Notes under the pieces: model-generated
The model's input: the letters and a program-made list of their open reading frames with translations, nothing else
Databases searched by the model: none
Told to the model about the DNA's origin: nothing
Origin: an uncultured Desulfovibrio sp.
GTDB lineage: Bacteria > Desulfobacterota > Desulfovibrionia > Desulfovibrionales > Desulfovibrionaceae
Assembly (NCBI RefSeq): GCF_944324505.1
Contig: NZ_CALUWO010000001.1
Span: 124,001 to 188,000, forward strand
DNA: 64,000 nucleotides
Direction: 5' to 3'
In this document: positions 9,790-25,011 of the stretch, one piece after another
How the letters are laid out: every line of letters begins with the position of its first letter
How positions within the stretch are numbered: position 1 is the first letter of the stretch
Made by a program: the position numbers and the translations under genes

Positions 9790-10679
9790 TGCACTCCTTT
9801 ACTCCCGTTTCACTGGAGCAGCGCGCCGACTATTATGCCCTGTGGCAGCAGACGCCGCGCCATTCCCTGGACTACAGCCTGGCCAACCTCTGGGGCTGGC
9901 AGGGGCATTACGGCCTGCAATGGCATTTTGCCCATGGCCTGTGCTGGATATGCCAGACCCTGCCCGTGCGGCAGTACTGGGCACCCGTGGGCGACTGGCA
10001 GCACGCCGACTGGCCCGCCCTGCTCCCCCAGCTGGCCGATGCGCCCGTCATCCGTGTGCCGGACGAACTGGCAGCCCTCTGGCAGGAAGCCCTGCCGGGG
10101 CGGGTGCAGATCAGCGAGGACCGCGGCCAGTGGGAATACCTCTATGACCGCGAAGCCCTGGCCACCCTGCCCGGCAACCGCTATCACAAGAAAAAGAATC
10201 ACGTAAACAGCTATATCAAGACCTACGGCGAGCCGGACTACCGCCCGCTGGACGACGCCATGGTGGAAGATGTGCTGGCCCTGCAAGACACCTGGTGCCA
10301 GTGGCACGAATGCGAGAACTCCCCCTCCCTGCGGGCGGAGAACGAGGCCATCAACCGCGTGCTGTCCCACTGGGAACTGTTTGAGGGACTGACGGGCGCC
10401 TCGCTCTACGTCAATGACCAGATGGTGGCCTTCAGCGTGGGGGAAAAACTGGATGACAATACCCTGGGCGTCCACTTTGAAAAAGGTCTCAACGGCTTCA
10501 AGGGCGTTTACCAGACCATGAACTGCCTGTTTGCCCGCTACGCCGGTGCGGATTTCCAGCGGCTCAACCGTGCCCAGGACCTGGATGAAGAAGGTCTGCG
10601 CCAGGCCAAGATGACCTATCTGCCCGCGGACTTTGTGCGCAAGAGCCGCGTCCGCATCCTGGAGGCGGCATCATGCTGA
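9786..10679 (+). CDS. DUF2156-family (GNAT-like, phosphatidylglycerol lysyltransferase-related) protein
   Basis: 297 residues resembling the C-terminal domain of MprF-type aminoacyl-lipid transferases and the DUF2156 proteins built from two GNAT-like folds. Seen in sequence: SLANLWGW near the N-terminus, RYHKKKNHVNSY at about 135-147, SLYVNDQMVAFSVGE at about 205-220 and KGLNGFKGVYQTMN at about 235-250. No membrane segment is present, so it is a soluble protein. The ATG overlaps the MATE stop (ATGA), implying co-expression; it overlaps the next gene by 7 nt. Whether it transfers an amino acid to a lipid or peptide is not known. Confidence 0.8.
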   Translation: MMHSFTPVSLEQRADYYALWQQTPRHSLDYSLANLWGWQGHYGLQWHFAHGLCWICQTLPVRQYWAPVGDWQHADWPALLPQLADAPVIRVPDELAALWQEALPGRVQISEDRGQWEYLYDREALATLPGNRYHKKKNHVNSYIKTYGEPDYRPLDDAMVEDVLALQDTWCQWHECENSPSLRAENEAINRVLSHWELFEGLTGASLYVNDQMVAFSVGEKLDDNTLGVHFEKGLNGFKGVYQTMNCLFARYAGADFQRLNRAQDLDEEGLRQAKMTYLPADFVRKSRVRILEAASC

Positions 10680-12049
10680 GGTTTCTCCCTGCGTCGGGCC
10701 GCCTGCCCTACCTGCTGCTCTGCCTTGCGCTGGTGCTGGCGCTGTCCGCCTGCGGGGGCGGCAAGCCCGTTCCCCCGCGCGACGGCAGCATGCCGCCCTG
10801 GATGGGCACCCTGCGCGACATGCGCACCTTTCCCCAGGACCTGCTGCCCTTTGCCCATGCGGCCGGCGCCGACAGCCCCCTGCTCACGGCAGGGGAGCAG
10901 GCCAGTCAGGACGCGCGCTTCAACCGCATGTTCTTCAAACCGTGGGACATGGCGCGAACCTCCATTTCGCGCAAGGCGGCTTCGGCCATCTTCGGCAAAG
11001 CGCGCGGCTACCGGGGCAGCGTTCGCTGGACGCAGGAGGAATGGGACCTCATGGCCCGCAATGCAGCCATGAAGACCTTTCCCAATACGGCGGACAAGGC
11101 CATTACCATCCGCCAGACGGACCTGCGCGAAATGCCCACCCACAGCCCGCGCTTCAGCGAGCCGACCACGAATCCCCGCGCCAATCCCTTTGACTATTTC
11201 CAGTATTCCCTGCTGCCCGTGGGCACGCCGCTTTTCATTGCCCATGTGAGCCGCGACCGCCAGTGGTACTATGTGGAAAGCTCCGTGGCCGCCGGCTGGG
11301 TGGATGCCAACGACGTGGCGCTGGCGGACGCCACCTTCCGCGCCCGCTATGAAAACGGAAACTACGCCGCCATTCTGCGCGACAATGTGCCCCTGCCCGG
11401 CAGCCAGAACGCCCGGGGCGACATCGGCACCATCCTGCCCCTGGCCGGCACGGCCTCGCAGCCCGGTATGGTGGACCTGCTGGTCCCGATCAGAAAGGGG
11501 AGCCTGGCCGACACGGCGCGCGTTACCGTGCCGCTTTCGCTGGCAGCCCGCAAGCCGCTGCCCATGACGCCTGCCGCCGTGGCCCAGCTGGGCAACGAGA
11601 TGATGGGGCAGCGCTACGGCTGGGGCGGCATGTTCGGCGACCGGGACTGCTCCGCCCTCACCCGCGACCTCATGGCGCCCTTTGGCATCTGGCTCGGCCG
11701 CAATTCCTCCAGCCAGGGACGCGCCGGCGTCATCATTCCCCTGGATGGCCTGTCCACCCGCGAAAAGGAACGCCGCCTGCTGCAAGACGGTGTGCCCTTC
11801 CTCAGCCTGGTCTGGATGCGCGGGCACATCATGCTCTATGTGGGCGAATACAAAGGAAGACCGGCCATTTTCCACAATCTGTGGGGCCTGCGCGTCATCA
11901 ATGGTGATGACGACAATGACCGCTTTGTGGTGGGGCGGGCCGTGGTTACTTCCATTGCGCCGGGGCAGGAACTGCGCAATCTCTACCGCAAGAGCACCTT
12001 TGCGGACCGGCTGCGCAGCCTGACCATCCTGCCGCCCGGCCGGCAGTAG
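10673..12049 (+). CDS. SH3-type and NlpC/P60 domain lipoprotein, probable cell-wall peptidase
   Basis: 458 residues. The N-terminus is a lipoprotein signal (hydrophobic run to LVLALSACGGG, lipobox Cys about residue 24). A central SH3b-like region (about 180-285) precedes an NlpC/P60 domain with the nucleophile Cys in GDRDCSALTRD (about 326) and His in GHIMLYVGEY (about 385). Such proteins cut gamma-D-Glu to diaminopimelate bonds in peptidoglycan stems. The ATG at 10673 follows GGAGG at 8 nt and overlaps the DUF2156 gene by 7 nt. It probably acts in the periplasm attached to a membrane. Confidence 0.88.
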   Translation: MLRFLPASGRLPYLLLCLALVLALSACGGGKPVPPRDGSMPPWMGTLRDMRTFPQDLLPFAHAAGADSPLLTAGEQASQDARFNRMFFKPWDMARTSISRKAASAIFGKARGYRGSVRWTQEEWDLMARNAAMKTFPNTADKAITIRQTDLREMPTHSPRFSEPTTNPRANPFDYFQYSLLPVGTPLFIAHVSRDRQWYYVESSVAAGWVDANDVALADATFRARYENGNYAAILRDNVPLPGSQNARGDIGTILPLAGTASQPGMVDLLVPIRKGSLADTARVTVPLSLAARKPLPMTPAAVAQLGNEMMGQRYGWGGMFGDRDCSALTRDLMAPFGIWLGRNSSSQGRAGVIIPLDGLSTREKERRLLQDGVPFLSLVWMRGHIMLYVGEYKGRPAIFHNLWGLRVINGDDDNDRFVVGRAVVTSIAPGQELRNLYRKSTFADRLRSLTILPPGRQ

Positions 12050-12108: not shown

Positions 12109-13743
12109 ATGACAGCCACACTGCATTTTCAGGTAATGAACGAGGCCGGCCAGCGGCTTGACCGCGTGCTCAGTCTTCGCCTTGCGGAGCTTTCGCGCGG
12201 CGCCATACAAAAGGCCATTGCCGCCGGGCACTGCCACATTGATGGCCTGGCCGTCACGGCAGCCGCCTACAAGCTGCGCGCAGGGCAGGAGGTACGCCTG
12301 GAGCTGCCCCCTGCCGGCAATCCCTTACAGGCAGAAGCGGCAGAGCTGGACGTGCTCTGGCACGATGAGCGCCTGCTGGTCTGCAACAAGCCCGCGGGGC
12401 TGACGGTGCATCCCTGTCCTTCCTGTCCAGAAGGAACGCTGGTGCACCGCCTGCTCTTTCACTTTCCGCAACTGGCCAGGCTGGACGGGCTGCGCCCGGG
12501 CATCGTGCACCGGCTGGACAAGGATACCAGCGGCCTGCTGCTGGTGGCCCTGGACGAGGCCACCCGCCTGCGCCTGTCCCAGGCCTTTGCCCGGCGCGAG
12601 GTGCACAAGACCTATCTGGCCCTTGTGCAGGGGGTTCCCCCTGACAGCGGCCAATGCCGCGAAGCCATCGGACGTCACCCCACAGCGAAAATCAAGATGG
12701 CCGTGGTGCCGGAAGCCCGCGGGGGCAAGGCGGCCCTCAGCCAGTGGCGCGTACTGTGGGCTGCCCCCGACAGGAGCTTTGCCCTGCTGGCCGTGCGCAT
12801 CCACACGGGGCGCACGCATCAGATACGGGTGCACATGCAGCACGTGGGGCATCCCCTGCTGGGCGATGCCCTCTATGCCCCCGAGGCCGTGCGCCGCCGT
12901 GCGCCGCGCCAGATGCTGCATGCCTGGGACATGGCCCTGGCCCATCCCTGGAGCGGCCGGCCCATGCACTTTTCCTGCCCGCTGCCGCAGGACATGCTGG
13001 ACACGGCCGTCATCCAGGCCAGCCGCATGCAGCGCCTGGTGGTCACGGGCAATCCGGGCTGCGGCAAGTCCAGCGTCTGTGCCGCGCTGGACGCTGCCGG
13101 CATTCCCGTGATCAGCGCCGATGCCATTGTGCATGAACTCTATGCCCCACGCGGCGCCATGAGTCAGTGGCTGGCGCACCGCCGGGACGATCTGCTGGCA
13201 AAAGACGGCAGCGTGGACCGCGCCCTGCTGCGCCCGGCCATGCGCCAGGATGCCGTCCTGCGCAAGGACGTGGAGCACATGGCCCATGCGCTGGTGCGCG
13301 ATCGCGTGGCCGCCTTCTGGGAGGAGGCCGAAGCGCAGGGGCATGCCGTGGCCGCCGCAGAAATTCCCCTGTATTACGAATGCGGCTGGCACGTGAAAAC
13401 CTTTGTGCCGCAGCCGCTCTGCCTTTGCATCACCTGCCCGCAGACCATGCGCCGTCAGCGTGTCATGATGTCCCGCGGCTGGAGCGCCGCCCATTTTGAT
13501 GAACTGGAAAGCTGGCAGTGGCCGGAACAGCGCAAGGCTGCGGCCAGCGCCCTCTGTCTAGAAAATACCGGCAGTCCGGAACAGATGCAGGAGGCCGTGC
13601 AGGCCCTGCTCACTGACCTGCACCAGCGGCAGGACGCGGCGCGCGCGGCCCTGCGTCACGAGCTGCGGGCAATCTCCTGCGCGCCCTGTCCCCCCATGCC
13701 GCCCTGCTCCTCCATCCCGTGCCCCTGCACAGAACACCCATGA
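12109..13743 (+). CDS. coaE: Fusion of RluA-type pseudouridine synthase and dephospho-CoA kinase
   Basis: 544 residues. An S4 RNA-binding domain (1-70) leads an RluA-type synthase with catalytic Asp137 in HRLDKDTSG and RTHQIRVHM at about 240. From about residue 310 a P-loop GNPGCGKSS begins a CoaE domain with SADAIVHEL and RQRVMMSRGW near the lid, which phosphorylates dephospho-CoA in the last step of CoA synthesis. The frame is continuous through the junction. The gene ends in a Cys/Pro-rich tail of unclear meaning. It overlaps ybaK by 4 nt. Why the two activities are joined is unknown; the pairing is conserved in some relatives to my knowledge. Confidence 0.9.
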   Translation: MTATLHFQVMNEAGQRLDRVLSLRLAELSRGAIQKAIAAGHCHIDGLAVTAAAYKLRAGQEVRLELPPAGNPLQAEAAELDVLWHDERLLVCNKPAGLTVHPCPSCPEGTLVHRLLFHFPQLARLDGLRPGIVHRLDKDTSGLLLVALDEATRLRLSQAFARREVHKTYLALVQGVPPDSGQCREAIGRHPTAKIKMAVVPEARGGKAALSQWRVLWAAPDRSFALLAVRIHTGRTHQIRVHMQHVGHPLLGDALYAPEAVRRRAPRQMLHAWDMALAHPWSGRPMHFSCPLPQDMLDTAVIQASRMQRLVVTGNPGCGKSSVCAALDAAGIPVISADAIVHELYAPRGAMSQWLAHRRDDLLAKDGSVDRALLRPAMRQDAVLRKDVEHMAHALVRDRVAAFWEEAEAQGHAVAAAEIPLYYECGWHVKTFVPQPLCLCITCPQTMRRQRVMMSRGWSAAHFDELESWQWPEQRKAAASALCLENTGSPEQMQEAVQALLTDLHQRQDAARAALRHELRAISCAPCPPMPPCSSIPCPCTEHP

Positions 13744-17011: not shown

Positions 17012-19006
17012 TCATCCATGCAGGGAAAGGGGAGCCTCCGCCGTTGCCGGCGGCCTGCTGTCCCGGACAGCATGGGTAAACAGCTCCAGCAGGCGCTCTT
17101 CCGTGGCGGATTCGTCCAGCAGCGCGCGGATGCGCTTCCAGGCATTCCGACCCAGGCGCTTGCGCTCCTCGGGACGTGCCGCCAGTTCCAGCAGGGCCTG
17201 CGCCAGCGCGTCCACATCGTCAGGCGGAACCAGCAGACCGCTCTGCCCCGTTTCCACGGCCTCGTCAATGCCCGGCAGCTGGGAGGCCACCACCGCGCAG
17301 CCAAAGGCCATGGCCTCGGTAAGGGCCGAAGGCATGCCGTCCCTGTCGCCATCGGCAGCCACGCGCGACGGCAGGACCACCACATCGGCACGCTGGTACA
17401 GATCAGACATGTTTTCGTGCGGAATGTGCCCCGTAAACACCACCCTGCGACGCAGCCCCAGACGGAAGGCCAGCCACTTGAGGCGCCGCCGCAACGGCCC
17501 GTTGCCCACCACGCGCAGTTCGAAGTCCACATTCTGCTGCACCAGGCGGGTGCAGGCCCGCAGCAGCACATCCACCCCCTTGCGGGGACAGAGGGTCCCC
17601 ACCGTCAGCAGCCGCAGGGGCTGCGGGGTCGAGGTGGGCGGCAGGCTGATGTCCTCATCCGGCGGGCTGAGGGTCAGGGGATCGCGCAGCAGCACAAGGC
17701 GATTCAGGGGAATGGCCGGCAGCAGCTCATGCAGGGCGCGCCGCGTGGCCTCGGTATCACAGGCCAGAAAGGCGGCATCGGCCAGCTTCACCGCCCAGTC
17801 CCTGCCGGGGCGCACCATGTCGGCGGTGCGCACCCCCACGGCAAAGGGAATGCGCAGCAGGCGCGAGGCAATCCAGGCGGCCGTGGCCGGACCGTGTGCG
17901 CCGGAGGCGTAGAAGAATTCTATGTCATCCTCCTCGCCCCAGCGGGCCAGCATGGCCCCGCAATCCATGGCCCAGAGATGGCGAAAGCGCTGCCCCGGGG
18001 TGCGGCTCAGGGTACGGCGCAGCTCTTCCCACGGGGGGTCATTGCGCCGGCGGTAGTGCTGCACGGCCGCCATGACGGACGGCAGACGCCAGCGCCCCAC
18101 ACGCCGCACCGGCAACGGCAGGGCATATCCCTGATCCTCGCTGCCCAGCAGGCTGCCGCCGCGCAGGGCATAGATGCGGGACAGCAGCCCCGCCGCGTGC
18201 ATAGTGTGCGCGCTTTCCATGAGGCTGCGGCCCGACGGCTCGGGAAAGGTCTCGGCCAGCAGCGCGCCCCGCACCACCGGCGCCACGCCGGCCAGCAGAT
18301 TGCCGCCCAGGTTGACCTCGTCGGGCGAAAAATCGCGTCGGCGGCAGTTGAGAATGCCGTCATCCAGGGTATACACGCTGTCGCAGAATTCGGCCATGGC
18401 CGGGTCATGGGTAACCATGATCATGGCAACGCCGCCAGAATGGCAGAGCGTGCGGAAGTTGTTCATGATGACGCGGCTGGTCTTGGCATCCAGGGCGCCG
18501 GTGGGTTCGTCGGCCAGCAGAATGCGAGGATTGTTGACCATGGCCCGGGCAATGGCCACGCGCTGCTGCTCCCCGCCGGACAGACGATTGCTGCGGTAGT
18601 GAACGCGCGCGGACAGGCGCACCAGGTCCAGCGCGCGGATGACCCGCGCCCAGCGCTCCGACGGCGGCACCTTTTCGTAGATGAGGGGAAATTCCACGTT
18701 TTCAAAAACCGTGGAATGCTCAAAAAGGTTGCTGGCCTGCATGACAAAGCCCATATTGCCCCGGCGGAAGGCCGCTGTCTGCTCCCGGTCAAAGGCAAGG
18801 ACATTCTGCCCCAGGATTTCCAGCGTGCCCGCGTCCGGCGCATGGAGCATGCCCAGCACGTGCAGCATGGTGGACTTGCCGCAGCCGGACGGCCCCATGA
18901 TGGCCACCAGCTCTCCCGGCTCCACCTCGATGTTCACCCCGCGCAGGACCGGCGAAAACCCTGCGTAACACTTGTACAAACCCTTGGCGATAATGACCGG
19001 AGGCAT
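17012..19006 (-). CDS. Fusion of a MacB/LolD-type ABC ATPase with a GT4 glycosyltransferase
   Basis: 664 residues in one uninterrupted frame. Residues 1-225 form a complete ABC ATPase: Walker A GPSGCGKST (38-46), signature LSGGEQQ (142-148), Walker B ILLADEP (162-168) and the switch His in VTHDP. From about 240 a full GT-B family 4 enzyme follows: LLAETFPEPSGRSLMES as the usual N-terminal strand and helix, LLRIPFAVGVRTADMV, LLTVGTLCPRKGVDVL and GMPSALTEAMAFG. The expected partner permease lies 6 nt upstream. ATG 19006 is preferred over GTG 19012. The product would energise transport and also add a sugar; such a joined protein is unusual. Frame integrity is clear from the sequence, function is inferred. 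Confidence 0.85.
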   Translation of the reverse strand: MPPVIIAKGLYKCYAGFSPVLRGVNIEVEPGELVAIMGPSGCGKSTMLHVLGMLHAPDAGTLEILGQNVLAFDREQTAAFRRGNMGFVMQASNLFEHSTVFENVEFPLIYEKVPPSERWARVIRALDLVRLSARVHYRSNRLSGGEQQRVAIARAMVNNPRILLADEPTGALDAKTSRVIMNNFRTLCHSGGVAMIMVTHDPAMAEFCDSVYTLDDGILNCRRRDFSPDEVNLGGNLLAGVAPVVRGALLAETFPEPSGRSLMESAHTMHAAGLLSRIYALRGGSLLGSEDQGYALPLPVRRVGRWRLPSVMAAVQHYRRRNDPPWEELRRTLSRTPGQRFRHLWAMDCGAMLARWGEEDDIEFFYASGAHGPATAAWIASRLLRIPFAVGVRTADMVRPGRDWAVKLADAAFLACDTEATRRALHELLPAIPLNRLVLLRDPLTLSPPDEDISLPPTSTPQPLRLLTVGTLCPRKGVDVLLRACTRLVQQNVDFELRVVGNGPLRRRLKWLAFRLGLRRRVVFTGHIPHENMSDLYQRADVVVLPSRVAADGDRDGMPSALTEAMAFGCAVVASQLPGIDEAVETGQSGLLVPPDDVDALAQALLELAARPEERKRLGRNAWKRIRALLDESATEERLLELFTHAVRDSRPPATAEAPLSLHG

Positions 19007-19012
19007 ACGCAC

Positions 19013-20203
19013 CTACTCGAAACGCAGCGCCGTGACCACATCCATGCGACTGGCCTGGATGGCGGGATACAGACCGCCGGCCACGCCGATGACGGCGGAA
19101 AAGAAGATACTGCCCAGACTGCTGGCCAGCAGCAGCGGATAGGAAATGGCGGTGTCCAGCGCCCACGCGCCCAGCTCCACGCAAATGGTCCCCACGATGA
19201 TACCCAGCAGGCCCCCTGCCACGGACTTGACCAGGGCCTCGGCCAGGAACTGGGCCAGAATGTCCACATCGGAACCGCCCATGGCCTTTTTCAGGCCCAC
19301 TTCACGGGTGCGGGCGCGCACGGCGGCAAAGGTGCCGTACCAGATGCCGAAGCCCCCCAGCATGAGCGAAGCCGCAATACCCAGCCAGAGCAGGGCTTCC
19401 ACCCACATGAAGGTGATCTTGATGCGGTCCAGCTGGTCATCCTGGGTGGCGCAGACAAGATAGGGCGCATCCTGGTGCGCCCGTACCACACCGGGCAGCT
19501 TGCGCACCACGCCAGCCACGTCTTCCCAGCCGATGCAGCGCACAAACAGGCGGGTCACGCCATCGCCGCCCCAGTTGCGGTCCACCATGACCGTATAGGG
19601 CATGAAGCCGCCTTCGCTCCAGCTGCCCAGCATGACGCCGGTGACCACGCCCACCACCTCGAAAACATCGCGGCCCAGCACCAGCAGCTTGCCCACGGCC
19701 TTGGCCGGATCCCCGTAGAGGGCCTCGGCCCCCTCGCGGCCCAGCATGCACACGCGGTTGCGCTGCTTCACGTCATCCACGGTAAGCAGGCGCCCGGCCA
19801 GCAGCTCCAGCGAGTAGGCCGGCGCAAAGTATTCGTCCACGCCGATAAAGGACGTGCGGATGGTGCGTTCCTGCATGCCCCGCAGGCTAAAGACAATGTT
19901 GCCGCGCACATTCTGGCTGACCAGGCCCACGCCGGGAATGTTGCGTATGGCCTCCACCGTTTCGGGATAGAAGGTCCGCAGGGGCTGGCCGGGATACTGG
20001 TCATCATCCATATAGACGCGGACAATATTGACCCCGCCCATGAGCACCATGTCCTGCCCCACCTTATAGCGAATCTCCTGGCCGAGCACGGAAAGGGCAA
20101 TGAAGGCCGTTATGCCCAGCGCAATGGACAGAATGACACCAAAGCCGCGCTGGCGCACGACCTGGCGCACACTGATGCGGCAGAGATCGGACATGGCTAT
20201 CAT
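19013..20203 (-). CDS. MacB/FtsX-type ABC transporter permease
   Basis: 396 residues. One membrane helix near residues 22-42, a large periplasmic domain (about 45-275, MacB core-like, with ETVEAIRNIPGVGLVS and LLAGRLLTVDDV) and three C-terminal helices; TREVGLKKAMGGSDVDI before the second helix is typical of the FtsX family. These permeases do mechanotransmission or lipoprotein/peptide export rather than classical polysaccharide flipping. It is directly upstream of its ATPase. GGGAGG precedes the start at a rather long distance; ATG 20194 is an alternative. It has its own promoter candidate at 20240. Confidence 0.9.
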   Translation of the reverse strand: MIAMSDLCRISVRQVVRQRGFGVILSIALGITAFIALSVLGQEIRYKVGQDMVLMGGVNIVRVYMDDDQYPGQPLRTFYPETVEAIRNIPGVGLVSQNVRGNIVFSLRGMQERTIRTSFIGVDEYFAPAYSLELLAGRLLTVDDVKQRNRVCMLGREGAEALYGDPAKAVGKLLVLGRDVFEVVGVVTGVMLGSWSEGGFMPYTVMVDRNWGGDGVTRLFVRCIGWEDVAGVVRKLPGVVRAHQDAPYLVCATQDDQLDRIKITFMWVEALLWLGIAASLMLGGFGIWYGTFAAVRARTREVGLKKAMGGSDVDILAQFLAEALVKSVAGGLLGIIVGTICVELGAWALDTAISYPLLLASSLGSIFFSAVIGVAGGLYPAIQASRMDVVTALRFE

Positions 20204-20287: not shown

Positions 20288-21454
20288 CTAGCGCCGCATG
20301 CCCCGCACGCTGCCGCCCGGCCCCACCTCATACCAGATGCCATGCCACAGAATGCCGCTGGCCCGCAGGCTGTTCACGTACACGCGGGCAAACATGGCGG
20401 CGCTGACGCCAAAGGCCAGCATCCAGCGCCACAGGGCAAAGCTGTTGCCCAGCAGGCCGCGCCACTGGCCCATGGCCGCCGCCAGGGTAATGAGGTAGAG
20501 AAAGGACACGGTGGTCCAGCCCAGGCCCCCCCCGCCCAGCAGCAGGGCCAGCAGCGAAAGCACGGTCAGCAGCGGCGGCAGGGCCATGACGGCGCACAGC
20601 CCGCCCAGCAGATACCACTGCTGACGCACGCAGAACTTGAGAAAAAGCACCTGCCTGTCCATCCAGGCCTGCCAGACGGCCAGGGGATGCTGCTCCGCCT
20701 CCGTGCGCAGCAGGGCGCCGGGGCACAGACGCACGCTCACGCCCTCGCGCAGCAGCACGCCGGCCAGCGAACAGTCGTCCACCACATTGGCTTCCCACAG
20801 TTCGCGCACCTTGTAGCGGGCAAAACTTTCCCGGCTCATGCACATGGCACCGCCCCAGGGCTGGGTAAAGCGGGACAGGCCCTGCAGATAGCGCATGAGC
20901 TGCACGCACAGGGCATAGGCCATGGTCACAAGCCCCTGATCATACGGGCGGACCTCATGATAGCCCGTGGTCACCGATGCCACGCCCACGGCCACCGGCC
21001 CCACCAGCTGCCGCACAAAGTCGGGGCGGGCAATGTGGGTGCTGTCACAAAAAACATAGACATCGGCCGCATCGCCCACCGCTTCCACCGCCTTCAGGCT
21101 GTTGTGGTTCTTCTGGCCGCAGCCCCTGGCCTCCCCTGCCACCACGTGGCGCAGGGAGGGATGGGTCTTTTGCAGGCGCTGCACCAGCTCTGCCGCCGGT
21201 TCCGTCTCCGTGGCCGTCACCACCACGGGCAGCAGGGCGGGATAGTCCTGTTCCAGCAGGGAAGTCAGCGCCTCTTCCATGCGCGGATGACTGCCCGCCG
21301 CCGGAATGATCAGCGCCGCGCGCGGCCAGTCCGCCTCGGTGGCAGGTCCGATGAGTTCTTCCTTTTCCTCACGGGCAAGGCGTTCACCAACCCGGCCGAG
21401 CCACCAGAGCAGCACCCCCTGGGCAATGGCCAGAAGCAGAAAAAGTCCCCACAT
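20288..21454 (-). CDS. Membrane glycosyltransferase family 2/21 (ceramide glucosyltransferase- or HpnI-like)
   Basis: 388 residues: an N-terminal membrane helix, a GT-A domain with AALIIPAAGSHPRMEEAL, FCDSTHIARPDFV (the D-x-D equivalent region), NVVDDCSLAGVLL (general base Asp) and several C-terminal helices (about 270-365). The architecture is that of processive or lipid-linked family 2/21 enzymes that sit in the inner membrane and glycosylate a lipid. GAGGAA lies before ATG 21454; the gene follows the secreted protein by a single nucleotide. Donor and acceptor are unknown. Confidence 0.85.
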   Translation of the reverse strand: MWGLFLLLAIAQGVLLWWLGRVGERLAREEKEELIGPATEADWPRAALIIPAAGSHPRMEEALTSLLEQDYPALLPVVVTATETEPAAELVQRLQKTHPSLRHVVAGEARGCGQKNHNSLKAVEAVGDAADVYVFCDSTHIARPDFVRQLVGPVAVGVASVTTGYHEVRPYDQGLVTMAYALCVQLMRYLQGLSRFTQPWGGAMCMSRESFARYKVRELWEANVVDDCSLAGVLLREGVSVRLCPGALLRTEAEQHPLAVWQAWMDRQVLFLKFCVRQQWYLLGGLCAVMALPPLLTVLSLLALLLGGGGLGWTTVSFLYLITLAAAMGQWRGLLGNSFALWRWMLAFGVSAAMFARVYVNSLRASGILWHGIWYEVGPGGSVRGMRR

Positions 21455-21455
21455 A

Positions 21456-21911
21456 TCATTCCTCGCTCAGGCGCCAGCCGTCCTCAGGGACCGGGGCGCA
21501 GTCTTCTGTCACGGGCACGTTGCGCGTGCGCCGTGAGGTAATGTTGAATGTCATGCCATTATGCAGGCGCAGCGATCCCTCTACCCTGTCGCCCCGCAGC
21601 TGCCCGGCAAAGCGGTGGCCGGAAGTATGCGTTGCCTCAAGGTAGCCGTCTTTCACCGTTCCGTTGAGGTGATAGACATCCACCTGGCCGCTGCGGGTGC
21701 GCAGCAGGCTTGCGCCGCGGACTCCGCCCCGGCTGTTGATGCAGAAGGTCACCCGGAAACGGGACCCCAGCACCGCGCCTTCCCACATTTCCGTTACCTC
21801 GCCGGGTCTGGGAGGCACAGCCACCTTGCCGGTGGTGCCCGCCATGACGACTCCGGGCAGGGCAAGCAGCCCGCCCAGCAGGCAGACGCCCGCGACCTGC
21901 CGCAGGTTCAT
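21456..21911 (-). CDS. Small secreted protein of unknown function in the glycan operon
   Basis: 151 residues with a clear signal peptide (LLGGLLALPGVVMAG, cleavage around residue 24). The mature part has repeated beta-strand-like segments (LGSRFRVTFCINSRGG, GTVKDGYLEATHTSG, QLRGDRVEGSLRLHNG) and two Cys. I recognise no family. It is squeezed between two glycosyltransferase genes: overlap of 4 nt with the upstream GT4 (ATGA) and a 1-nt gap to the GT2. It may be a periplasmic partner of the MacB-like permease or a glycan-binding protein (inference). Confidence 0.8.
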   Translation of the reverse strand: MNLRQVAGVCLLGGLLALPGVVMAGTTGKVAVPPRPGEVTEMWEGAVLGSRFRVTFCINSRGGVRGASLLRTRSGQVDVYHLNGTVKDGYLEATHTSGHRFAGQLRGDRVEGSLRLHNGMTFNITSRRTRNVPVTEDCAPVPEDGWRLSEE

Positions 21912-22990
21912 GGCCGCCTCCGGGCCGCCACGGCCGACAAGACGGCCTCATGGGCGTCCACCATGGCGGCAAAGGAAAAGTCCGCCTCGGCCCGGCGGCG
22001 CCCCGCCTGCCCCATGCCATCGCCCAGGGCAGGATCGTCCAGCAGGCGCAGGATATGCGCCGCCAGCGCGGCATCATCCCCGGCCGGGCACAGCAGCCCG
22101 CTCTCGCCGTCGCGCACCAGACGGGGAATGCCTCCCACCGCCGTAGCGCAGACGGGCAGGCCGCTGGACATGGCTTCCAGCAGCACATTGGGCTGCCCCT
22201 CCCGCACCGAGGAAAGCACAAAGATACGGGCCTGGGCATAGAAATGCCGCACGTCCGGTCGGCCGGGGAAAAAGTCTATCCCGGCCCCTTCGGGATGACG
22301 CGCGGCCCAGTCCTTGAGGCGGGCCTCCTCGGGACCGTCCCCCACCAGACACAGGCGCACCTCGGGATGGCGGGCGCGCACCCGGGCAAATGCCCGAAAC
22401 AGGGTGAGGTGATCCTTGTCTCCCGCAAGGCGGGACACGCAAAGCAGCTGCGGCGGCCGGGACGAGACGGGCGCCTGCGGCGGCGCATACAGGGCCGTAT
22501 CCACCCCGTTGGCAATATAGGTCAAATGGCCGGCGGGCACGCCAAGCCCCGTCAGCACCTGATACAGGGCTTCCGAATTGCAGATCATATGCTCCGTCAG
22601 ACGCCAGAGCCATCGCTCATGCTGCCGCCGGGGGCCGCCCCCGCCGCGCACCGTGCCCACCACGGGCAATCCCAGCCAGCGCCCCCAGATGCGCCCCCAG
22701 ATATTGGGCAGCGCCGTGCACGGCACCAGCACCTGGGGCCTCAGCCGCAGCAGCGCCGCACGCAGACGCCAGAAAAAGAAGGGCGCCAGGCGGCGGTCAC
22801 GGCCCAGATGCTGCACCTCGATGCCGGCCTCGCGGGCCAGCCCGTCCAGGTCCGTGGGCCCGGTCAGGGTAAGCATGACCGGCGCAAAGCGGCTGCGGTC
22901 AAGCCGTCTGGCCAGTTCCAGCATCTGGCGCTGCGTACCGCCATAGCAAAGGTCTTCCATAAGAAAGAGAACGCGCAGAATTGTGGACAT
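21908..22990 (-). CDS. Glycosyltransferase family 4
   Basis: 360 residues of the GT-B fold: VLFLMEDLCYGGTQRQMLEL at the N-terminus (acceptor side), HMICNSEAL, LLCVSRLAGDKDHLTLFRAF (about 195-215) and the sugar-nucleotide site REGQPNVLLEAMSSGLPV (about 285-303) with the E-x7-E motif. First gene of the minus-strand glycan operon. ATG 22990 is chosen over an in-frame TTG at 23026; the ribosome site is weak (TGGAAAA). Cytoplasmic enzyme adding a sugar to a lipid-linked or soluble acceptor, exact specificity unknown. Confidence 0.88.
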   Translation of the reverse strand: MSTILRVLFLMEDLCYGGTQRQMLELARRLDRSRFAPVMLTLTGPTDLDGLAREAGIEVQHLGRDRRLAPFFFWRLRAALLRLRPQVLVPCTALPNIWGRIWGRWLGLPVVGTVRGGGGPRRQHERWLWRLTEHMICNSEALYQVLTGLGVPAGHLTYIANGVDTALYAPPQAPVSSRPPQLLCVSRLAGDKDHLTLFRAFARVRARHPEVRLCLVGDGPEEARLKDWAARHPEGAGIDFFPGRPDVRHFYAQARIFVLSSVREGQPNVLLEAMSSGLPVCATAVGGIPRLVRDGESGLLCPAGDDAALAAHILRLLDDPALGDGMGQAGRRRAEADFSFAAMVDAHEAVLSAVAARRRP

Positions 22991-23070
22991 GGGGAGTATT
23001 TTCCAGCATTCCGCGCCGTTTGGCAAGAGGGCGCATTGCCAGCCGGCGGGAAAGGCGCTATGGTGCCGGC

Positions 23071-24081
23071 ATGTCCGTATCTGTCCCTTCCTCCGGTCCT
23101 GAGGCCCCCCTGCGCGTCATCGTCAGTCTGGATGTTGAAGAAGAGGGCCTGTTTTCCGGCCACTATGCCCGCAGCGGCTGCGGGGTGCGCAATATCTCCC
23201 TGCTGCCGCGCCTTGCGCCCCTGTCTCATGAGCTGGGCTTTCCGCTGACGCTTTTCTGCGCCCACAGCGTCTTTGCCGACGGCGCCGCCCGGCGGACGCT
23301 GGAAGTCATGCGCGACCGCCACGGGGCAGAAATTGGCGCCCACCTGCATCACTGGAGCACGCCGCCCCTGGATGACGAGGGGGACAGCACCGGACAGCCC
23401 GCACGCACGGACACCCTGCCGCGGGACCTGCTGCGCCGCCGCCTGCTGACGCTGCTGCGCGAAGGCGAGGATTTCAACAGCGCGCCGCTGACCAGCTTTC
23501 GCATGGGGCGCTGGGACCTCAAGAACAGCGTGCGCCCCCTGCTGGCCGAAGCGGGTATTACGCTGGACAGCTCCGTCTGCCCCCTGCGGGCCTTTGCCGG
23601 CGGCGCCGACCACTTCCTGGCCCCGGCCGATCCCTACTGGGTGGAAGGCAGCGGGCAGACGCCTCTGCTGGAGGTACCCATTACGCAGGTGCCCCTGTGG
23701 CCCTTCCTGGCCCGGCAGTGGTACGGGCATGCCCCCCGGACCTGGCTGGACAGCTTTCACTTTTTCGGCGCGCTGAGTGCCAATCCCTTCTGGCACGGGC
23801 CGCGCGCCATGCGCATGGCCGTACGCCTGCACCGTGCCCGCGGCGGCCGGGTGCTCAGCCTGTTCTGGCATTCCTCGGAAATGCTGCCCGGCGGCTCGCC
23901 CCATGTGCCCGACCAGGCCGCCGCCGATGCCGTGCTGCGCCGCATCCGCCAGTTTCTCACCTGGCTGCGCGACACCTTCCCGGTACAGGGCTGCACGGCA
24001 TCGCAGCTCCGGGCCGAGGCCCCGGCGCTGGCCTTTCCCCGCCGCCCGGAACACGGTCCGGCGGCCCGGGGAGACTGGTAG
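23071..24081 (+). CDS. Polysaccharide deacetylase-like protein (WalW/WbmS type)
   Basis: 336 residues. SLDVEEEG (about 19-26) takes the place of the metal-binding Asp motif of NodB-fold deacetylases, and EIGAHLHHW (about 90-98) gives the His pair; FRMGRWDLKN and DSSVCPL follow as in WalW-like proteins tied to O-antigen loci. No signal peptide, so it probably acts on a cytoplasmic or lipid-linked intermediate. It is divergent from the glycan operon, sharing an 80-bp control region, so common control is likely. No good ribosome site precedes the ATG at 23071. Confidence 0.75.
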   Translation: MSVSVPSSGPEAPLRVIVSLDVEEEGLFSGHYARSGCGVRNISLLPRLAPLSHELGFPLTLFCAHSVFADGAARRTLEVMRDRHGAEIGAHLHHWSTPPLDDEGDSTGQPARTDTLPRDLLRRRLLTLLREGEDFNSAPLTSFRMGRWDLKNSVRPLLAEAGITLDSSVCPLRAFAGGADHFLAPADPYWVEGSGQTPLLEVPITQVPLWPFLARQWYGHAPRTWLDSFHFFGALSANPFWHGPRAMRMAVRLHRARGGRVLSLFWHSSEMLPGGSPHVPDQAAADAVLRRIRQFLTWLRDTFPVQGCTASQLRAEAPALAFPRRPEHGPAARGDW

Positions 24082-24126: not shown

Positions 24127-25011
24127 ATGAATACCCCCGCTGCCCCGCTTGTTCAGAAAAGCGGCTATTTCTGGATTCTGCTCACGGCCTTCTTCTGGTC
24201 CCTGGTGGGCGTTATCTCCAAGGAGTGCATGGCCGAAGGCATGCAGCCGCTGGAGGTGGCCTTCTGGCGCGCCGCCTTCGGACTGGTCCTTTTTCTGCTG
24301 CATACCCTGCTGCATCACGAGCTGCTGGTCCCGCCCAGGGCGGCAGGTTCCTTCTTTCTTTTCGGCATCTGGGGCATCGGCGTCTTCTATTCCGTCACGC
24401 AGTATGCCATCAAGCTCAGCGGCGCGGCCATGTCGGTCATTCTCATGTATACGGCCCCCATCTGGGTTGCCCTCTTTTCACACCTGCTCTTTCGCGAGCA
24501 CATCACGACGCGCAAGATGCTGGCCATCGGTGTGGCCCTGGGCGGCACGGTGCTGGTCTGCCTGTCCGGCGGCAGCCTGCCGGGGCAACGCTCCTGGGTG
24601 GGCATAGCCTGCGGCATCATCATCGGCCTGACCTATGCCTCGCACTATCCCTTCTATCGCTGGTGGCAGCAGCGCTACAGTGCCGCCACCATCTACTTCT
24701 ATTCCCTTCTGGGTGGCCTGCTGGCCCTGGGCATGGTCTCGCCCGTGCATCTGAACCACTCCCCGCGCATCTGGTTCTGCCTGCTCATTCTCGGGGCATG
24801 CACCAGCTATTTTGCCTATCTCTGCTACGGACTGGCCCTGAAGCGCATCGGCCTTGTCCGGGCCGCCGTCACCTGCTATCTGGAGCCTGTGCTCAGCACC
24901 CTGTGGGTCTGGCTGTTCTGGCAGGAGCAGTTCACACCCATGGGCTGGCTGGGCAGTGCCCTGGTGCTGGGCGCCGTTCTGCTGCTTTCTCTGGACAAAT
25001 CCACCGAATAA
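24127..25011 (+). CDS. EamA/DMT-family metabolite transporter
   Basis: 294 residues, ten predicted membrane helices in two EamA repeats (N-terminal GYFWILLTAFFWSLVGVISK, C-terminal repeat starting about residue 155). DMT carriers export or import amino acids, nucleotides or other metabolites; substrate unknown. The Arg/Lys-rich LALKRIGLVRAA loop and YLEPVLSTLWVWLFWQE near the end are typical. It follows the deacetylase gene by 45 nt and could be co-transcribed with it. No strong ribosome site was seen. Confidence 0.88.
   Translation: MNTPAAPLVQKSGYFWILLTAFFWSLVGVISKECMAEGMQPLEVAFWRAAFGLVLFLLHTLLHHELLVPPRAAGSFFLFGIWGIGVFYSVTQYAIKLSGAAMSVILMYTAPIWVALFSHLLFREHITTRKMLAIGVALGGTVLVCLSGGSLPGQRSWVGIACGIIIGLTYASHYPFYRWWQQRYSAATIYFYSLLGGLLALGMVSPVHLNHSPRIWFCLLILGACTSYFAYLCYGLALKRIGLVRAAVTCYLEPVLSTLWVWLFWQEQFTPMGWLGSALVLGAVLLLSLDKSTE

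Follow-up and report, generated by a model that had tools for sequence, protein, structure and literature searches.

In Anabaena, the PKS-made heterocyst glycolipids are exported by DevBCA-TolC(HgdD), which combines a MacB-type permease and a separate, unfused ATPase with an HlyD-like adaptor and a TolC-like channel (PMC5985334, PMC8064123). The first-pass annotation of the locus described here had taken MacB-type pumps to be normally separate from sugar transfer, a generalization that this glycolipid exporter contradicts (PMC5985334). The wider MacAB-TolC/MacB (type VII) superfamily shares a permease with MacB_PCD and FtsX domains and a LolD/MacB-type ATPase, which in MacB proper is joined to the permease. 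A PKS and an oxoamine synthase together yield sphinganines in Pseudomonas, and the PfSgaAB system of Pseudomonas fluorescens has a PKS-type ACP encoded beside an SPT-like oxoamine synthase (PMC12134224); Desulfovibrio is absent from the main text of that paper. Two groups of glycosyltransferases (GT) also bear comparison: WcaL/EpsE-type GT4s, with a GT-B fold and a Glycos_transf_1 domain, and HpnI/GT21 ceramide-type enzymes, which are membrane GT2s with a Glyco_transf_21 match.

The locus lies in a contig of an uncultured Desulfovibrio sp., and the window refers to the whole stretch of 64,000 nucleotides that was analysed (Table 1). One reading frame runs without a stop for 666 codons from its GTG start, with an equally possible start at ATG 19006 (664 codons), and carries two Pfam domains: ABC_tran (121 bits, residues 23–171) and Glycos_transf_1 (134 bits against a cut-off of 26.4, residues 465–626), the latter assigning it to GT family 4. 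The ATPase motif set is complete (Walker A GPSGCGKST, Q-loop, LSGGEQQR, ADEP, GALDA and VTHD), and Walker A, the signature and the switch His are invariant across all 31 aligned fused proteins. In an AlphaFold2 model, the ATPase domain matches LolD, MacB and FtsE (TM about 0.8, with low pLDDT there) and the GT-B domain matches MshA, BshA and PimB' (TM by target about 0.75). These data confirm the initial observation of a complete ATPase and a glycosyltransferase in one frame: the protein is a MacB/LolD/FtsE-kind ATPase to which a short linker connects an entire GT-B/GT4 glycosyltransferase. The GT half might also be translated on its own. No start codon in the linker has a Shine-Dalgarno-like sequence ahead of it, and one GGAAAG precedes ATG 271, which falls within the GT fold.

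Table 1 Features of the fusion locus and of the AT+ACP gene at the second locus (contig C8)
Feature	Position	Strand	Remarks
Fused ABC ATPase-GT4 glycosyltransferase	17012-19012	-	666 aa from GTG 19012
ATPase domain	18347-19012	-	Residues 1-222; Pfam and alignment; closest solved relatives 5xu1, MacB, LolD
Walker A	18869-18895	-	ATPase-domain motif
Signature	18560-18583	-	ATPase-domain motif
Walker B	18503-18523	-	ATPase-domain motif
Switch His	18404-18415	-	ATPase-domain motif
Linker	18272-18346	-	Residues about 223-247; low pLDDT
GT-B N-terminal (acceptor) domain	17648-18271	-	Residues 248-455; Arg395 invariant; retained in truncated relatives
GT-B C-terminal (donor) domain	17048-17647	-	Residues 456-655; Lys478 kept; Arg of 'GR' is Thr473
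DX7E of donor domain	17315-17341	-	Asp558...Glu566
MacB-type permease	19013-20203	-	Pfam MacB_PCD and FtsX; sole copy in genome
Membrane GT2, HpnI/ceramide-glucosyltransferase type (GT21-like)	20288-21454	-	Glyco_transf_21 match
Small exported protein	21456-21911	-	Predicted 8-stranded beta-barrel, calycin/avidin-like fold
GT4 glycosyltransferase	21908-23026	-	Best model TIGR03088, below cut-off; likely start 22990
'SLDVEEEGLF'-kind gene	23071-24081	+	Polysaccharide deacetylase-like in look; divergent from cluster
EamA transporter	24127-25011	+	Often adjoins cluster; role in system uncertain
AT+ACP protein	L128:14208-17945 (own contig C8:19208-22945)		1245 aa; Pfam acyltransferase and ACP domains

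The adjoining permease, correctly recognized as MacB-type from the outset, is the upstream gene, and its stop codon abuts the GTG start of the fusion. Its scores for MacB_PCD (88.4 bits) and FtsX (45.5 bits) are both above cut-off and, with the complete ATPase motif set, place the pair in the MacB-type (type VII) group. It is set apart from MacB proper by an ATPase that is separate from the permease and joined to a GT4 instead, and the MacB model PRK10535, with a cut-off of 966 bits, gives 181.6 and 94. DevBCA models likewise stay below their cut-offs (DevA on the ATPase, 176.6 of 295.8; DevB on the adaptor, 29.1 of 129); unlike the Anabaena exporter, the Desulfovibrio system has a GT fusion, an oxoamine synthase and partners spread over two loci. 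The family models place it outside DevBCA, which it resembles in general plan. The GT half reaches neither equivalog cut-off (WcaL, 112 of 538; EpsE, 126 of 400) and differs from these enzymes in being fused to an ATPase and in its replaced diphosphate Arg. The neighbouring GT2 resembles HpnI/GT21 enzymes in type, although its HpnI score (64.9 bits) is below the cut-off of 310.

The small exported protein matches no Pfam family; its model (pLDDT 87) resembles avidin-like folds (Z about 10), and the protein is conserved with the cluster. Calycin/avidin-like barrels often bind small or lipid ligands, although the fold alone proves no function. No Pfam or NCBIfam model reaches E 0.001 for the 'SLDVEEEGLF' protein or for a second protein of this kind on contig C8 (C8:26124-27143); each locus has one such deacetylase-like protein. 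A promoter and terminator scan revealed no clear operon ends, and Rfam found one tRNA and nothing else. Elsewhere in the window, one 544-aa ORF (12109-13743, plus strand) unites an S4/RluD-type pseudouridine synthase and a dephospho-CoA kinase (CoaE), both by Pfam, with matches also in L036 and L016, and a cell-wall hydrolase-type protein with NlpC/P60 and SH3 domains is encoded near the cluster (10673-12049, plus strand).

In the source genome, the adaptor (MFP), the TolC-like channel (OEP) and an oxoamine synthase are encoded on contig C8 and not at the fusion. This second locus also encodes a Wzx-like flippase, the AT+ACP protein, two WcaL-type GT4s, an AsnB of XrtA type and the second deacetylase-like protein, in an arrangement that recurs in one other genome (G040) and partly in another (G137). 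In contrast to PfSgaAB, the AT+ACP protein is without a ketosynthase by Pfam, and glycosyltransferases and an exporter are linked to the system. No Pfam family matches the last 600 residues of the AT+ACP protein, which share only 35% identity with the G040 counterpart. The oxoamine synthase reaches no equivalog cut-off of NCBIfam (highest with bioF, 353 of 426; SPT, 287.4 of 640); it appears SPT-like, with a probably sphingoid-type product that falls below assignment by family models.

Other genera of the family encode the ATPase (about 50% identity) and permease (34–46%) separately, in neighbourhoods with an SPT-like alpha-oxoamine synthase, a TolC-type channel, an HlyD-type adaptor and glycosyltransferases. 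In one 20-kb cluster (L112), the oxoamine synthase (429 of 640 with the NCBIfam SPT model, below cut-off), permease, ATPase, OEP and MFP are separate genes, accompanied by a small protein, a deacetylase-like protein, GT4b and a free WcaL-type GT4. No other free match listed comes as near to the whole fused GT half as this last GT4 does (39% identity). The simplest reading is that the fusion would have united two proteins of one cluster. Adaptor and channel stand beside the unfused pair in relatives; here they are on another contig, and the adaptor is co-retained. Of the 149 family genomes compared, 42 have permease (counted at E below 1e-60) and adaptor together, four the permease alone and two the adaptor alone, with kinship ignored. 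None of the 55 good genomes of the genus, two of them just 1.4 Mb in size (98% complete), lacks the ATPase, the adaptor, the oxoamine synthase or GT2; this count, too, ignores kinship. G137 has, besides a fused copy elsewhere, a second, unfused permease-ATPase pair (L104:9605-11473, C2; 46% and 55%), which comes with an adaptor gene and outer-membrane protein-like genes of its own.

We scanned one genome per GTDB species with short-peptide patterns, which would miss distant fusions, and the full-length relatives found were all Desulfovibrionaceae (48–81% identity), with the junction in frame in every case. Within the genus, 73 of 79 genomes have a match, including 55/55 of good quality, and about 60 carry the full-length form; the fusion is also present in two genomes of a second genus. 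No fusion was found at E below 1e-64 in 395 genomes of the phylum outside the family. With about 60 other genomes sharing the in-frame junction, neither chance nor a missed stop can account for it, which disposes of the concern that a sequencing error or a peculiarity of this strain had joined the two genes. Fused proteins form a single group in the ATPase-domain tree (support 100/98), and the fusion has one origin in that tree. Both halves are under purifying selection, far stricter on the ATPase half (dN/dS 0.02–0.06) than on the GT half (about 0.10–0.32), where the ratio is similar to that of the operon's free GT2 and GT4b. Searches of the open-access literature returned no ABC-GT fusion and no description of this system.

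We propose, with confidence only slightly above even, that the pump is a MacB/DevBCA-type tripartite exporter whose cargo is a glycosylated, probably sphingoid-type lipid, and that the fusion joins its ATPase subunit to a GT4 from the biosynthesis of that lipid. Direct support comes from the fusion itself, its conservation, its gene partners, their co-retention and purifying selection. The oxoamine synthase, PKS-like AT/ACP protein, lipid-type GT2, pump, adaptor, channel and calycin-like protein together point to lipid synthesis, glycosylation and export, with precedents in the sphinganines of Pseudomonas (PMC12134224) and the heterocyst glycolipids (PMC5985334, PMC8064123). The lipid cargo, the direction of transport, the activity of the GT and the joining of the pump with the adaptor and channel from C8 are inferences. 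The alpha-oxoamine synthase and the AT/ACP protein would make a sphingoid-like amino lipid, to which the HpnI-like GT2 and GT4s would attach sugars at the cytoplasmic face. The permease and ATPase would then drive the glycolipid through the C8 adaptor and TolC-like channel towards the outer membrane, and the fused GT4 may either add one sugar at the pump or tether the pathway to it.

The nucleotide-sugar site of the first-pass annotation holds for the acidic motif and Lys478, but the site is a variant, with DX7E instead of EX7E, as in free relatives and same-genome free paralogs, and Thr in place of the diphosphate Arg. In an alignment of 34 rows, three free relatives included, Lys478 is kept in 30, the first acid (D or E) in 31, and the last Glu and Arg395 in all 34. 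In PimA and MshA, the corresponding Arg binds the diphosphate of the donor; it is T, S or A in most fused proteins and R in free paralogs. These replacements would suit a catalytically dead GT half, persisting as a leftover or scaffold on an ordinary exporter ATPase, as would several natural losses. Seven genomes (L133-L139) encode a protein that stops after the acceptor domain, the donor domain being deleted; two (L140, L141) retain the ATPase alone; and one full-length protein (G193, L143) has lost the Arg, the Lys and the first acid. Two proteins that stop at the edge of a contig (G184, L034) were left out of this tally. The N-domain remnant of the truncated forms is drifting under weaker constraint (dN/dS 0.28–0.49). 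Arg loss is nevertheless no proof of inactivity, because active ManT also lacks that Arg and has its Lys and Glu as essential residues (PMC9883506). Lys478, the D/E-X7-E acids and Arg395 are retained in nearly all full-length fusions, and dN/dS is no higher than in free GTs. We consider a dead GT half possible but unlikely. Loss of the N-domain His was rejected as a sign of inactivity because Arg at that position occurs in free paralogs.

The shortened forms cluster together in the ATPase tree (100/98), with their placement among full-length fusions unsettled, and they derive from full-length proteins because a GT remnant persists. ATPase and permease are intact in all of the altered genomes (L133-L141 and G193), and GT2 is present in most. 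As ATPase, permease and unlinked partners persist after GT loss, the pump is retained without the attached sugar step, and the fused GT appears to be an accessory, not an obligatory, part of it. The coupling of lipid export to glycosylation that was first suggested thus fares unevenly: the partners suggest export of a glycosylated lipid, but the pump outlives the GT in seven plus two genomes. Coupling is possible in full-length lineages. Its strictest form, in which the GT4 would glycosylate the PKS/oxoamine-synthase lipid at the cytoplasmic gate, a two-locus machine would export solely glycosylated lipid and some lineages would later have lost the step, strikes us as unlikely.

The same genes could instead build or secrete a surface polysaccharide or lipid-linked oligosaccharide, the oxoamine synthase serving something else. 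The Wzx-like flippase and XrtA-type AsnB on C8 suit a polysaccharide too, deacetylase-like proteins occur at both loci, and the GT half best fits EPS-type models (EpsE, then WcaL), albeit far below cut-off. However, no Wzy, Wza or Wzc was recognized among the annotated C8 genes, and a MacB-type permease with an adaptor and a TolC-like channel would be an unusual route for a polymer. The GT2 is of the lipid-acting HpnI/ceramide type, and the oxoamine synthase gene lies next to the others in relatives and is kept with them in every good genome of the genus. We regard the polysaccharide route as possible but unlikely. Far less probable is a LolCDE-like lipoprotein extractor or an FtsEX-like mechanical machine to which sugar transfer would be unrelated. 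The ATPase is like LolD and FtsE in sequence and fold, but it falls under both cut-offs (LolD TIGR02211, 184.5 of 307.75; FtsE, 179.5 of 264.85), and we found no support for the lipoprotein substrate once envisaged. An adaptor and a TolC-type channel lie beside the pair in relatives, in a setting of lipid and sugar genes, and to our knowledge neither Lol nor FtsEX uses such components.

Export of a glycosylated lipid, as we propose it, would make this an apparently undescribed glycolipid-type export system, present in every good Desulfovibrio genome examined, gut species included. By tying an exporter ATPase to a glycosyltransferase, two parts of one pathway, the natural fusion offers a testable case of synthesis-coupled lipid export, for which the lineages without the GT half are a ready natural control.
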